From assembly GCA_001275005.1 (NCBI GenBank), contig JWZX01002454.1, positions 1 through 31,305 on the forward strand: a DNA stretch of 31,305 bases. Direction: 5' to 3'. This stretch comes from Chrysochromulina tobinii. Lineage: Eukaryota > Haptophyta > Prymnesiales > Chrysochromulinaceae. The position numbers were made by a program, and so were the translations under genes. Position 1 is the first letter of the stretch, and each line of letters opens with the position of its first letter. The notes beneath the pieces are model-generated. The model was given only the letters and a program-made list of their open reading frames with translations, ran no database searches and had not been told where the DNA came from. Below, piece after piece: positions 2,627 through 17,000 of this stretch.

Positions 2627-4519
2627 ATGGAAGCCCTGTTGGAAGCCCTCAAAGCTGAGCAGGCGCTGCTGCGAAATCGAGTGCGCCACAAGCTAGCCAG
2701 GGCGGCAGGCGAATCTTTTGTGCTTGCTCAGTCCACGTCAGCGAGTCATGTGCAGCGACCAACGCGGCCTGCGGGAGGTCCAAGCGCGTCCTCGGCAGCG
2801 TACGCTTTGTTGGGGCCAGATATTGCGCAGGTGCATACGGAGTTGCAGAAAGCTCTACTCGATATGCTCGTTGAGGAGCAAAGCATTATGTTGCCAGCAC
2901 GCTCAGACTACCTACTGAGGCTTGCCATCGAGCGCAACGGCGTCCACTCCTTAATTTGCAAGGCCAGTCCGAGGAATGTGGAGCTCGCACTGACTGAGCT
3001 TTCAGGAATCGCCCCGCACGCCGTGCGCGTGGAGCACAGGGAGCTTATGTGGCTCGACCAGCCCGCACTGAGCGACTTCCGCATGCGGCTAGTGGGCAAC
3101 TCGAGAGCTGGGCAAGCCGCCCGGCCGCCGCCTCCCTTCGACAACGGCAGCGCTCCTGCTCACGGCAGCGCTCCTGCTCACGGCAGCGCTCCGGCTCCGG
3201 GAGCATCCGCTGGCAAGGGCACTGGCAAGAAGCGCTCGGCGACGACGGTTCAGGACGACGAGCTCGCAGAGGTCTTCGACCTCGTCGACAAGAAGACCAC
3301 GAAGCAGCAGGCCCTTCAAGAAGAGCAAGATCAGCTTCTCGAGCTGCTCGCAAAGCCTTCAGCCAAAGTCCAACACCAGACGGATCGCTTCCGAACCTCG
3401 GGGGGGTCGAAGCTGAAGCAGTTTTGCCGCAGCGGCACCAAGGAGGACTGTGCGCGCCTCAATGGCACCGGCTATGCGTGCGACAGCATCCACTTTCGGC
3501 GCATCATCCGGCCGCACACAGACCCGTCGTTAGGCGACTGCTCGTACTTGGACACGTGCCGCCACATGGAGAAGTGCAAGTTCATCCACTATGAGGTGGA
3601 CGCAGGCGATGCGGAGCGCATGCGCGACGGTGCGGTGCAGCTGGATCCGCACGCGCGCACGGCGATCAACCGCAAGACGGGCGGCGAGGACCCCTTTGCG
3701 ATGCACTTCGAGTCACAATTCGTCAATTGTGATATCCGGACGTTCCCGATGGCGAGCCTGGGCAAGTTTGCCGTCATCATGGCGGACCCTCCGTGGGATA
3801 TCCATATGGAGCTGCCGTACGGCACGATGAGCGATGACGAGATGCGCCGGATGGATGTGCAAGTTCTGCAGGACGATGGCGTCATCTTCCTGTGGGTGAC
3901 AGGCCGAGCCATGGAGCTCGGCCGAGAGTGCCTCAGCATTTGGGGGTATCGCTTCGTGCAGGAGCTGCTCTGGGTGAAGACGAACCAATTGCAACGCATC
4001 ATACGGACGGGGCGCACCGGCCACTGGATCAACCACTCGAAGGAGCACTGCCTGGTAGGCATCAAAGGTCAGCCCGACATCAATTGGAATCTCGACTGCG
4101 ACGTCGTGTGCGCGGAGGTGCGCGAGACCAGCCGGATGAGGACCTCTGCTGATGACCTCTGATGATGACTTCTGATGATGACCTCTGATTGCCTCCCTCA
4201 TCAGGTGCGCGAGACCAGCCGGAAGCCGGATGAGATGTACGACCTCCTTGAGAGATTGGCACCGGGCACGCGGAAGCTCGAGCTCTTCGGCCGTCCTCAT
4301 AACGTACACAAGGGATGGACTACCCTCGGGAACCAGCTCGGCAAGACGCGCATCACAGAGCCGTGGCTGCGAGAGCACTTGCTTCGCGAGGGGGTCTTTG
4401 CGGAAGAGGACCTCGCGCCTCTCCCCGAGCCTCCCAAACATCCAGTGGTGCAGCCGTGGGGCGGGCACCCTCCACCAGCGCCGTTGCCCGCGTTGAACAC
4501 GGCGCCCAGCCAGGCTTGA
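2627..4519 (+). CDS. METTL3: METTL3-like N6-adenosine mRNA methyltransferase (MT-A70 family)
   Basis: Exons 2627-4117 and 4205-4519; about 601 residues, close to animal METTL3 (~580). The family transfers methyl from S-adenosylmethionine to N6 of adenosine in mRNA, in the nucleus, with METTL14 and adaptor proteins. Visible features: N-terminal helical/disordered part; a three-copy GSAPAH repeat near residue 175; paired CCCH zinc fingers at about 265-325 ([10 protein letters not shown] ... [11 protein letters not shown] ... CKFIHYEV); catalytic D387-PPW followed by [19 protein letters not shown]; then [19 protein letters not shown] and [17 protein letters not shown] blocks; exon 2 supplies [20 protein letters not shown] and [11 protein letters not shown]. 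All catalytic landmarks are intact, so it is probably active. An upstream in-frame ATG exists at 2510, but 2627 matches the family start better and avoids a 39-residue basic extension. The short Pro-rich C-terminal tail is unusual. Confidence 0.95.
4118..4204 (+). other. Introner-like intron in METTL3 gene with duplicated flank
   Basis: 87-nt phase-0 intron, GAG|GTGCGC ... CTCATCAG|GTGCGC. Its first 18 bases (GTGCGCGAGACCAGCCGG, 4118-4135) are repeated exactly at the start of exon 2 (4205-4222). The similarity continues with ATGAG if a 7-base deletion in the donor copy is allowed. The middle is built from GATGACCTCTGAT-like repeats. The 3' end TGATTGCCTCCCTCATCAG is shared with introns at 5412-5485 and 15639-15555. 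Confidence 0.8.
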
Positions 4520-4934
4520 GATGGTTGTCTGGGCACGGTGAAGGCGAAGAGAGCCCCGGACGGCTCCGCGACGAGCGACGTCCTCGGGAGTCAGGGGAGT
4601 GTGAATGTCGAGAACTCGAAGGTACAAGGTTGCGCATGTCCATGTGGAGCCTGTGGAACGCGCGAGAGGGCTACGGGGGCGGGCAGCGGCGGCGAAAGAA
4701 AAGGCATTTGGGCGGGCGGCGCTGCGAGTGCCAGCGTTATTCCAGCGTTGGCGAAACTCTCGAGACTTAACAAACTGAACTGAACTTGAACTTGAACTTG
4801 AACTTGAACTTGGAAATTCCGCACCCGAGTTTCAAGTTTGGATTTGATGAGGACGCGCGTGAAAAGGCCCGCCTGCAAACTCTCGTGGCCGGCGCGGTCT
4901 GTGGCGCCCGGGCTACGGCGGCGAAGGAGCCGAC
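4520..4934. other. Intergenic region with (TTGAAC)n tract
   Basis: 415 bp between the METTL3-like stop and the EF-hand start. It contains a hexamer tract of GAACTT units at about 4776-4812, some 125 bp before the next ATG. It must hold the METTL3 3' end and the promoter of the next gene. No protein or RNA gene recognised. Confidence 0.5.
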
Positions 4935-14000: not shown

Positions 14001-17000
14001 GAGGGAGGCACTCAGCATGCAATGAGGGTGGGCCATCAGCATGCAATCAGATGCACTCAGTCTCGACCATCTTCAGGTCGCGCATCGAGAGCCTCACCGC
14101 CGCGGCGGCGGGGGGGCAATCAGTGGTAATCAGTGGTAATCAACAGGGAAAGCCTCACCGCCGCGGCGGCTGGGGGTCAATCAGTGGCAATCAGTGGTAA
14201 TCAGTGGCAATCAGTGGTAATCAGTGGTAATCAACAGGGAAAGCCTCACCGCCGCGGCGGCTGGGGGTCAATCAGTGGCAATCAGTGGTAATCAGTGGTA
14301 ATCAGTGGTAATCAACAGGGAAAGCCTCACCGCCGCGGCGAAGCTCATGCAACGGCGCGGCCCGGCGGCGGTTACGGCGGCCACCGCGAGCAAGCGCTCC
14401 ACTTCGGGATCCGGTTCGGGCACAGGCTCTTCATCGCCTCCCTCGGCGAGCATCGCCGCGGCCTCGTCAGCGGCGAGCTTCGCCTCCGCCGCCGCCTCGG
14501 CCTCCGCCTCCGGGTCCAGCTTACGCGACGCATCGATGATCACATTGTAATCGCCCGCGACGGTCGTCATTGCTCGGCAATCGTACGTGCCATCGCCATT
14601 GTCGACGACGGTGCCGTTGAAGCACAGGTGTGGCGGTTTCATGCCCTTGGGCCTCGCCGGGTTGATCACGGTCGACCCTTCATCGGAGGTGCCGACGTAG
14701 GACGAGGCCATCGGAGCCGGGTCCACGGACTGCAGCACCATGGTCACGCCGTCGCCACCGTGGTGGATCTCATTGTGGAACCGATCGCGACTTCGCACGG
14801 ACAGCTGCACCCACTGGTTCACTTTGAGCGTCGCGGCCGTGCTCCAGTCGAGTCGCGACGGCACATCGCGGGGGCTGATCCAGCGCAGGGCGCACGCGGG
14901 CGGGTGCATGGGCCCCGGCACGACGCTCACCCGAAATGGCGAGCCTGCGATGTGCTGCATCTCCACCTTCTCCACCGTCTTCGTGCCCGAGAATTTCGTC
15001 TGCTGCGTTGAGGTTACGAGCCAGGGCAACCGGATGTGCACCTCGTACTCGCCCGCGAGCTGGGTCATGTAGTTGAACGTGTACCGCCCCTTTGGCCGCC
15101 GCCTGCCGTGGCACTTGGGCTGAATGTTCGAAGTGAGTCCGATGATCTTGACGTCGAAGTCCGAGAGCGGTGGCTCGGCGATGTTGCCGTGGATGTCCCA
15201 CGTCTGCACCGCAAACGCGGCGGTGGCGCCCGCATCGACGCGTCGAAGCCCGCGCCCACTCGCGCCCGCCCCGCCAACACCGCGCCCAGTCGCCACGCAC
15301 GAGGGCGGGTGCGCCGGGCCGGCATCCACGTGCAACGAGAAGGGGGAGCCCCCTATCTGATCCCCGTACAGCTGGACGCCCACCTTGTAGTCTCCCGCCT
15401 TGGTGGGTTTGAGCTTGAACTGGTACGTGCCGTCGCCATTGTCGACCATCTCTGAGGGGCCAGGGTCGCCCCCGGAGATGGTCAAGCCGAACGGCTCGCC
15501 GCCAAAGCGGCGGCGCTCGCCAAAGTCGTCACATGCCTCGATCTCGATCTTCACCTGAGGAGGGAGGCAATCAGTGCCAATCAGTGCCAATCTTCATCAA
15601 ACTGTCACAATCTCGATCTTCATCAATCTCGATCTTCACCTCTTCGCCTGCCGTCGCCTTGGGGGGCGCCTTCTTGACCTTGCTCTCCTTCGCACTCGCG
15701 CGGTTGCCCGTGATGGCGAGATCGAAGGGAGATCCACGGAGCGGCTGTGGTGGGTTGTGGTCGGCCGCATCGGCGATCGAGAGGTAAATCTTGTAGCGCC
15801 CGATGGTGTTGATGCAGTACGAGAGCTCGTAGTGCCCATCCTCACAGTCGCGCACCGTCGCCGAGCGCTCGCTGAAGCGGGGATCGTCCTCAAAGGGTGC
15901 AGGTGGTTTGCCGCCCGGCCCCTTGATCACGCAGACCACCTTGTCGCAGCCGTAGCCGCGCGGGTTGTTGAGCGCATCGCGTGCCTCGAGCATGAACGCC
16001 TCGAGCGTATCCAACTGGCCGGTCTTCATCGCGAACCCGCTCACAATGCATGTCGGAGCATGCGTAGGTCCTGGCTGCACCTTGAGCTTAAATGGCGCCC
16101 CCTTGACGGGCTCATTGTTCAGATTCACTGAGCACATGTACTCGCCTGTGACGGTGGCTGAATAAAAGATCTCGTACGTGCCATCGCCCTTATCGACGAT
16201 GTCACAGCCGACTTTCTCCGGGCCCTGCACGGCGACGAGGCCTGCTTGCAGAGTCGTTTCGCCTCCGACTAGCCGTGGATTGTTGAAATTGTCGCGCGCG
16301 AGCAACAGGAACGAAGCGCGGTTGCCCGCCACGAGGATTGGCAGCGGCGCCTTGCTGTCCGCGCAATGGAGCCGCATGCACGCCTTTGCGTGTGCGGGTC
16401 CAGGGACCACCTCGAGTGTGAACGGCGACCCGCGCAACGGCGCTTGATTGTACTCAATCGAGAGGGCGAACTTGCCGGCCCGAAGCACCTTGTACGATGC
16501 GATGAAGGTGCCGAGCTCCTCCAGGGCCGCGACGCTGCCGGAGATGGTGGTCTTCGCCTCGTCGTAGGCCCTGTTCTCGCCGATGATCGTCTCGTCGCCG
16601 TAGTCGTTGACACCCTCCCTAAAGTCGAGCTTTAAGCTGAACGCACAGTTGGGCAGCTTTTGGAGCTCTGGAAGGGCTTCGCATCGGTTTCCGTACGGGT
16701 CTCGAGACTCAATATCAAAGGACATGGTCCTTCCCGCCTCCGCCTTCTTAAGGGCCGCTCCCGAGGCTCCCATCGTGCTCACGTCGGGCACGAAGCAGAA
16801 GCGGGCCTCGACGGGCGTGCGCAGGCACTCGATCTTAAAGCGGCCGCCCTTGACGAGCTTGCCGCACTGCCCTCGCACCTCCACCCAGTACTCGCCTACG
16901 ATTTGGAACGGGAGGCCTACGGGTTGGAGGCCGTTCAAGAGAGGATCTTTGTCCACGTCCACCTGCGAGCAGCACGCGCGCGCACAGGCATGCACCGGAG

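Follow-up and report, generated by a model that had tools for sequence, protein, structure and literature searches.

Thousands of introns in a Chrysochromulina genome, many of them young, appear to combine a copy of the next exon start with a short mobile intron end

The stretch of DNA analysed here (the window, 31,305 nt of Chrysochromulina tobinii, which we take to be a haptophyte) holds three introns in three unrelated genes that share their 3' end. The introns are found at 4118..4204 (+ strand), 5412..5485 (+) and 15555..15639 (-), as the initial annotation had placed them. They finish with TGATTGCCTCCCTCATCAG, TGATAGCCTCCCTCATCAG and TGATTGCCTCCCTCCTCAG, respectively, and its observation that all are in phase 0 and followed by GTG was also correct. 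The first intron (87 nt) lies in the gene of an MTA70-like m6A methyltransferase. Its first 19 nt (4118..4136, +) are identical to the start of the next exon (4205..4223, +, the right and coding copy), and this left copy would give the GT donor. Its last 19 nt (4186..4204, +) form a 3' cassette, TGATTGCCTCCCTCATCAG, with a branch-point-like CTGAT, pyrimidines and CAG. When the intron was removed the reading agreed with P0001 and the MT-A70 Pfam match crossed the junction. The intron in the gene of a filamin-repeat protein (85 nt) begins with a 17-nt copy of the exon start (15623..15639, -; 16/17 identical to 15554-15538) and ends with a cassette that has one mismatch (15555..15573, -). Joining of the exons of this gene yielded 849 amino acids with 0 stops; unspliced, the exons' own frame contains 7 stops and the other two contain 14 and 30. 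The remaining intron (74 nt) belongs to a gene that, judged by its sequence, probably encodes an EF-hand protein. Its joined exons are open to the end of the gene and its cassette (5467..5485, +) has one mismatch. Its duplication is short and degenerate, only GTAGGCTG/GTGGGCTG with 7/8 matching, and means nothing alone, because an anchored score of 6 is reached by 88/903 shuffled pairs and this intron stays below 6. The unspliced reading frames of all three introns hit a stop within the intron.

An expanded and nested relative, also recognized before, is located at 13873..14330 (-). It ends with CATTGCATGCAG, contains tandem TGAGTGCCTCCCTCATTGCATGC units and, amid further nested repeats, carries an internal left copy of the exon that follows (14079..14097, -; 18/19 identical to 13872-13854). 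P0121, which has an identical exon (441/441) and may come from the same organism, also contains the intron at 15639-15555, as does P0122, a close relative (exon 431/441); in both the intron is read through. The MTA70 relative P0006 loses its reading frame at the position of 4118, where it may have an intron. Not every copy need therefore be recent.

The initial annotation had named a lack of further copies in the genome as its refutation, and this did not apply: the 3' 19-mer has 3,713 copies with at most two mismatches in the 53-Mb assembly (family A), and the reversed pattern has 0. The exact 19-mer TGATTGCCTCCCTCATCAG is present 879 times, followed by GTA in 133 cases. A second, unrelated filler (family B) was detected as 1,597 copies of a non-repetitive 22-mer, and its anatomy is that of family A. 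Sampled copies of both families have a copy of the next exon, followed by a short cassette with a branch-point-like motif, pyrimidines and YAG. The exon copies exceed the range of 8-18 nt that had been described in the window; the sampled copies span 13-60 nt. Because the exon copy mostly starts at GT, the copied host GT would serve as 5' splice site. The proposal that the duplicated host GT supplies the donor and the element carries the acceptor is supported genome-wide, as an introner-like family. Introners in the broad sense are many similar introns at unrelated sites that can be spliced with the coding sequence kept. Here 3,713 and 1,597 cassettes were found, with their intron nature checked in samples, and the coding sequence appears to be kept according to frame and to Pfam matches that bridge the junction. 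That A and B are intron-creating mobile families, taken alone, is very probable. A search of IMG/VR for the family A 19-mer gave 0 exact matches, which says little on a viral source.

The coding frame agreed across the removed intron in 70 of 95 cases, where one-third is expected (P=1e-15). This test was based on codon usage trained on the exons of the window; 2 of the 95 lie in the training genes, and nested family A copies were left out. It replaced an open-frame test that is uninformative in this GC-rich genome (family B, 36/44 versus 39 and 36 in frame-shifted controls; family A, 46/79 versus 47 and 50). Pfam matches bridged the junction in 14/20 joined peptides, 8 of them above the curated cut-off, the 20 having been picked by eye among 60 of 85 joined. 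The agreement of frame and domains suggests that the A and B introns are spliced.

Family A duplications with an anchored score of at least 12 were present in 133/232 copies versus 7/903 shuffled pairs. For family B, a score of at least 14 was reached by 60/80 copies (59/78 distinct) versus 44/787 shuffled pairs. Chance as the source of the duplications was ruled out by these shuffled controls. Left out were 57/289 hits with a right flank that is itself element-like, the loci L001-L008, hits near stretch ends and, for the distinct B copies, two duplicate loci. The family A stretches were chosen around listed exact 19-mer matches on the first contigs, so that exact, young copies are over-represented, and 40 more were picked for GTA as next bases, which inflates the share of GT in this sample. 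For family B, the sample came from the first 100 exact matches listed. In a strict family A set (n=71) the duplication had a median of 26 nt (13-60, where 60 nt is the upper limit of the search), the inserts measured 19-103 nt and the unit had a median of 78 nt (IQR 73-87). In family B the median duplication was 30 nt (14-56), and 44 copies were exact GT introns with a length of 63-93 nt. Units of duplication plus insert often lie in tandem, and tandem repetition blurs boundaries in family A. A strict scan for duplications around AG/GT, after a first and looser one had been swamped by tandem repeats, yielded 53 short-distance repeats, of which 19 were intron-like (9% expected by chance) and 34 other; most short repeats around AG/GT are other tandem repeats.

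The lengths of duplication and insert compensate each other. The variance of their sum was 253 versus 497 after permutation in family A and 49.9 versus 249 in family B, and in either family 0/10,000 permutations gave a variance as low as that observed. Since the compensation was also seen in 18 non-nested copies without GT (rho -0.65), selection on intron length may be only part of the explanation.

Some inserts carry pieces of another gene. A 22-mer from an exon of the C395 gene occurs exactly at four places, of which three belong to C395 (the exon and two introns) and one to a C19 intron, and with 2 mismatches at a fifth. A second passenger leads from L147 to L173, which have 64 nt in common with one mismatch allowed, 11 nt of them in the L147 exon. 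When insert 5' segments were sought exactly elsewhere in the genome, 1/4 was found. The other three of these gave 0/3 exact matches and two other places at 3 mismatches, and the matches listed by a wider search for common 5' segments among the sampled loci were mostly repeat or cassette. The initial annotation had raised slippage or local duplication as an alternative. In a fuller form of it, exon DNA would have been duplicated locally in tandem, or by slippage, and then intronised, and the cassette would have arisen by convergence on splice signals. The tandem units and the repetitive body of family A are in line with it, as are the Daphnia neointrons, whose direct repeats are attributed to staggered breaks in the portion of that report used here (PMC4202315). 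However, the bodies are common to unlinked genes, and convergence can hardly account for the 879 identical 19-mers or for the 1,597 copies of a 22-mer that is not repetitive. Slippage was rejected as the sole origin, because the intron of one gene carries an exon segment of another that is exact only in those two genes. For the families as a whole we regard this explanation as extremely improbable.

The 5' ends of the A and B introns are site-specific exon copies, and only the 3' part is common. A conserved 5' start of the insert was not found. Comparison of the insert start with the reverse complement of the 3' end, as a search for a terminal inverted repeat, gave 2.6/12 versus 2.8 in shuffled pairs for family A (n=86) and 3.05 versus 3.24 for family B (n=40). 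A classical introner of the kind proposed for some algae would be a MITE, a non-autonomous DNA transposon that a transposase mobilizes. It would have the high copy number and the donor from a duplication that are seen here and, in the available text of the introner survey, in introners (PMC9860276). But neither terminal inverted repeats nor a short duplication of fixed length (it varies from 13 to 60 nt) were observed, and donor-exon passengers also speak against it. A TIR transposon was rejected on the variable duplication length, the lack of an inverted repeat and the lack of a conserved start, and the MITE explanation is very unlikely.

The 3' end of the cassette lies exactly at the duplication in 107/152 copies scoring at least 14 and in 15/18 non-nested copies without GT, which fits a retrotransposon-like fixed 3' end. 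LINE and SINE retrotransposition leaves variable duplications, 5' truncation, a fixed 3' end and 5' microhomology, and A and B largely resemble it in these. By target-primed reverse transcription, a LINE-type enzyme could have copied an excised intron RNA (or a SINE-like transcript): it would copy the YAG end of the RNA where a nick precedes GT, the copy would be truncated at its 5' end, and a second nick would make the duplication variable. The variable 5' ends, the YAG with which both unrelated cassettes end, the position of the passengers inside the donor intron and 21 reverse-transcriptase (RVT_1) matches in the genome (E<=1e-5) agree with this. The 5' microhomology agrees weakly, with a mean of 1.5 nt versus 0.5 (P=0.0025) in 19/78 recipients, those with a candidate donor, and 0.94 versus 0.50 (P=0.04) without three dependent rows (two reciprocal and one looking like related genes). 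However, 3'-truncated copies that end inside the cassette exist: L123, L147 and L173 seem to take their AG from the host, and the CCCCACAG end is missing from several copies that appear to be unspliced. The stretch that L173 has in common with its donor stops just 5' of the donor AG, at ATTC that is also present in the host. Moreover, a poly(A) or LINE tail was not seen, and the 11.2 kb beside 4/21 reverse-transcriptase loci contained no cassette that could mark a partner element. Such reverse transcription is possible, but we consider it rather unlikely.

Variable-length direct repeats around a filler, the pattern of filler insertion at staggered breaks, were found in both families. That unrelated cassettes have the same anatomy suggests either a process of the host or a common enzyme. 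We propose that part of an existing intron, mostly the 3' portion that contains the branch point, the pyrimidine tract and YAG, would be copied as a template to a new site, where 13-60 nt of target would be duplicated at insertion. The insertion would not be made by a TIR transposase; variable ends would be joined, probably at a staggered break or nick and perhaps with short homologies. If the duplication starts at GT, its left copy would become the 5' splice site and the cassette the 3' site, and the target would be spliced back unchanged. Selection would then retain the exactly splicing copies with a total length near 75-80 nt and, rarely, copies retained in frame within a protein. Consistent with the latter, family B copies without 3' end or fitting intron had a unit length divisible by 3 in 6/7 events (chance 0.007), sorted by eye and including one short tandem repeat; before sorting this was 13/20 (P=0.004), misaligned introns included. 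Family A copies without fitting intron, roughly classed and with many nested arrays, had no such excess (21/66). The account as a whole, introner-like insertion by copying of intron pieces with target duplication and subsequent selection, is somewhat favoured in our judgement, and for capture at a break over retrotransposition we would give even chances. A more tentative and rather doubtful extension is that introns need no transposon to spread. At staggered breaks, any intron that splices well could provide its 3' half as filler; such filler would turn breaks in genes into introns, would thereby render these breaks harmless, and so would become the commonest filler and breed itself. Each generation would retain the old 3' end, shed its 5' part and acquire another 5' end from the exon downstream. 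If this is true, introns would be mosaics of fragments of earlier hosts' exons.

The origin of introns in bulk is a long-standing question, for which the leading large-scale answer, in the available text of the survey, is introners, mostly interpreted as DNA transposons (PMC9860276). A genome with thousands of candidate introns, many of them young and of an anatomy unlike that of described introners, suggests a way to gain introns in bulk without a classical transposon. That text describes introners as numerous introns that are nearly identical, lie in coding sequence and occur chiefly in aquatic lineages; in most families the length of the mRNA does not change (Gozashti et al., 2022; PMC9860276). 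A and B share with them the many near-identical introns in coding sequence, and the recruitment logic, with the 3' site carried and the 5' site obtained from the duplication, is already known for introners. The published screen demands similarity near both splice sites, which A and B do not have, and discards low-complexity families (PMC9860276, as excerpted). Families such as A and B would therefore probably be missed, and their share in intron gain may be underestimated. The Daphnia report, as far as its text was available, describes 90 recently gained introns with repeats of 4-12 bp, ascribed to staggered double-strand-break repair (PMC4202315), whereas A and B have thousands of copies with a common filler and longer repeats. 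In the marine protist Amoebophrya, introner elements are likewise repeated introns and are bounded by direct repeats; in the relevant part of that paper these repeats are 3-5 nt, inverted repeats measure 8-20 nt and many splice sites are non-canonical (PMC7789003), whereas A and B have long direct repeats, no inverted repeats and mostly GT-AG. In the excerpted survey earlier introner families have repeats of 3-9 bp, TIRs are found in 72/177 families, and a Chrysochromulina family, with duplications of 4 bp, carries the 5' site (PMC9860276). A and B carry the 3' site instead. They are two unrelated cassettes with one anatomy, and their long variable duplications (13-60 bp), variable 5' ends, lack of terminal inverted repeats, passengers from exons, and copies that seem to stay unspliced and in frame set them apart from the introners described.

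The introner-like introns that the initial annotation had described in the window (4118-4204 and 5412-5485 on the forward strand, 15639-15555 and the expanded relative 14330-13873 on the reverse strand) were all found there as it had described them, with the copy at 5412-5485 being weak on its own. Their proposed membership of a larger family (family A) was borne out in the assembly holding the window (53.15 Mb, 2,253 contigs). Counted as cassettes and not as verified introns, with the anatomy examined in samples, the shared 3' 19-mer gave 3,713 matches at up to two mismatches (1,815 forward and 1,898 reverse), whereas the reversed 19-mer gave none in the whole assembly. 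Exact copies numbered 879, and in 133 of these GTA came next. A scan independent of the 19-mer revealed family B, introns built alike but around another filler, whose 22-mer GCAAGTGCTCACCACGGCGCCC had 1,597 genome matches at up to two mismatches, likewise a count of cassettes, against none for its control. In the window no family B copy was present even at up to four mismatches. Identical stretches of 100 bases around the cassette were observed on different contigs (C101 and C235, L132=L134; C692 and C760, L157=L148). This indicates that the assembly may hold redundant copies and that the copy numbers are perhaps slightly inflated.

Each unit consists of a left copy of the start of the next exon, followed by an insert. 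Of 289 family A matches in the stretches examined, the 232 in which the right flank was not itself an element were kept. With the alignment anchored where the cassette ends, 133 of them had a duplication scoring at least 12, compared with 7 of 903 shuffled pairs. In a strict set of 71 copies the duplication measured 13-60 nt (median 26, 60 nt being the upper bound of the search) and the insert 19-103 nt (median 52); the median length of the complete unit was 78 nt (IQR 73-87). Of the 93 ungapped duplication pairs 42 were identical and 65 had at least 95% identity, which implies that many copies are young. Units with TGAT make up the body in a variable array, and CTGAT within the unit matches a branch-point consensus. 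Insert starts had no conserved sequence apart from the TGAT of the repeat itself, and resembled the 3' end in reverse complement no more closely than shuffled sequence did (2.6 vs 2.8 of 12 positions). In cassettes ending in CAC instead of CAG, the base directly preceding the left copy was C in all 7 cases, the duplication starting 1-2 nt earlier [among them L016 (minus strand) at 5061 and 6683, L044 at 395, L046 at 155 and L068 at 187]. Arrays of entire units or of bare cassettes, seen at L028 (6581-6684) and on the minus strand of L023 (1405-1756) and L016 (3211-3940), mark sites that keep re-duplicating.

Family B showed the same duplication anatomy with a filler unrelated to that of A, as at L012 (200), L013 (5337 and 5982, minus strand) and L026 (3522). 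Among 80 stretches (78 distinct) drawn from the first exact matches listed, 60 had the duplication (59 of 78 distinct) compared with 44 of 787 shuffled; its length was 14-56 nt (median 30), and exact GT introns, 63-93 nt long with a median of 79, resulted in 44 copies. What is normally conserved is CATGCAAGTGCTCACCACGGCGCCC, with a variable pyrimidine tract and then CCCCACAG downstream of it. On the 5' side, break points lay up to 34 nt upstream of the 22-mer and up to 12 nt within it, 12 nt being the bound of the search, and 11 of 60 breaks lay within the conserved core, two apparently at nested copies. Fillers were at times chimeric, with A-type repeats immediately upstream of the B core (L126, L155).

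A simple open-frame test did not discriminate, as frame-shifted controls scored equally well. Support for intron nature came from a codon-usage model whose training set was the exons of the window (2 of the 95 copies tested being window introns in training genes). With the intron taken out, its two flanks were assigned the same frame in 70 of 95 copies (37/51 in A and 33/44 in B, against an expectation of one third; P=1e-15), and the sense strand was favoured in 80. For 20 peptides chosen by eye as recognisable, from 60 of the 85 joined peptides, the best Pfam stretch crossed the junction in 14, and 8 exceeded the curated cut-off; bromodomain, SPRY, filamin, AMPK1_CBM, P-type ATPase and MT-A70 were among the junction-crossing matches.

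Duplication and insert lengths were anticorrelated (rho -0.58 in A, -0.75 in B). The variance of their sum was 253 vs 497 for random pairings in A and 49.9 vs 249 in B, and a variance that low occurred in 0 of 10,000 permutations in either family. This compensation would be explained most simply if selection favoured introns about 75-80 nt long. However, it was present as well in 18 non-nested family A copies without GT (rho -0.65), which counts against intron-length selection, although GC-AG introns may be included among them.

By two of its proteins the window belongs with the haptophytes, at a distance from named genomes: the top match bearing an algal name was Chrysotila carterae (62%) for the MTA70-like methyltransferase, and the top named match of the SLY1-like protein was Prymnesium parvum (52%). 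At intron 4118-4204, six of eight retrieved relatives continued across the junction with one 14-residue protein string and may be spliced transcripts or intron-free genes. The reading frame of P0006, an MTA70 relative, was lost at this position, where it may also have an intron, and divergence of P0012 set in before the junction. Another protein, P0018, 77% identical over part of the window MTA70, bears the name of the firefly Lamprigera yunnana and perhaps reflects contamination of that assembly. At intron 15639-15555, the sequences of P0121 (exon 441/441 identical) and P0122 (431/441) run on into the intron and then stop, indicating that the close relative P0122 has the same intron. Long GC-rich codon repeats occupy window 1-480, near the contig start.

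An intron at L009 (contig C19) and introns at L073 (contig C395) had 58-62 nt in common, and the 5' half of this stretch corresponds to exon sequence in the C395 gene. A 22-mer of this exon passenger occurred exactly in four places genome-wide (the C395 exon, two C395 introns and the C19 intron), with one additional place at two mismatches. The C19 copy has GGATCTC, the variant of the C395 introns, and not GGACCTC of the exon. This indicates that an intron was copied from gene to gene with part of the donor's exon. Exon passengers were observed in two pairs only; in the second, L147 to L173, 64 nt were shared (one mismatch allowed), including 11 nt also in the L147 exon. The 5' segments of three other inserts had no exact match elsewhere in the genome. 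Slippage as the pure origin, an alternative raised in the initial annotation, is refuted by intron bodies common to different genes.

One account of such movement, target-primed reverse transcription of intron RNA, would fit the exact 3' end of most copies. Some family B copies, however, are without the 3' end. In L123, L147 and L173 the AG of the duplicated host sequence is seemingly used. Seven further events without CCCCACAG, sorted by eye, are seemingly unspliced: none has a duplication starting at GT, and in 6 of 7 the length of the unit is a multiple of three. Pieces without the usual 3' end on the minus strand of L013 (1620-1668) and L026 (5813-5888) and at L113 and L140 have a target duplication, lie in apparently coding DNA with units divisible by three, and look like in-frame peptide insertions. 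Moreover, the stretch that L173 shares with its donor ends just short of the donor's AG, at ATTC common to the host. No reverse-transcriptase element with family A or B ends was found in 11.2 kb examined at 4 of 21 loci. Because of the 3'-less copies and the L173 end point we lean, on sequence evidence, towards a copying process at a staggered break in which splicing would decide which copies survive, a reading to which we give roughly an even chance; reverse transcription is given a lower probability. A candidate donor was available for 19 of 78 recipients, and in these 5'-junction homology averaged 1.5 nt vs 0.5 in controls (P=0.0025), and 0.94 vs 0.50 (P=0.04) after removal of three dependent rows (two reciprocal, one resembling related genes). 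This weakly supports 5' microhomology at insertion junctions; the reduction does not alter the balance, since both accounts permit microhomology.

Families A and B are real and large, with many young copies, and are introner-like in effect. The figure legend 2B of PMC9860276 presents a design with a carried 3' site and a recruited 5' site, so the splice-site logic proposed in the initial annotation is already known. For earlier families that paper gives repeats of 3-9 bp, and its screen demanded similarity near both intron ends and discarded low-complexity families. Repeats of 4-12 bp are given for Daphnia neointrons (PMC4202315) and direct repeats of 3-5 nt in PMC7789003, and PMC12768974 mentions introners in mirusviruses. 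Among the matches listed for introners, target site duplication and haptophyte intron gain, titles and abstract openings do not report the present anatomy. It is this anatomy of families A and B that is new relative to the introners described in these papers.
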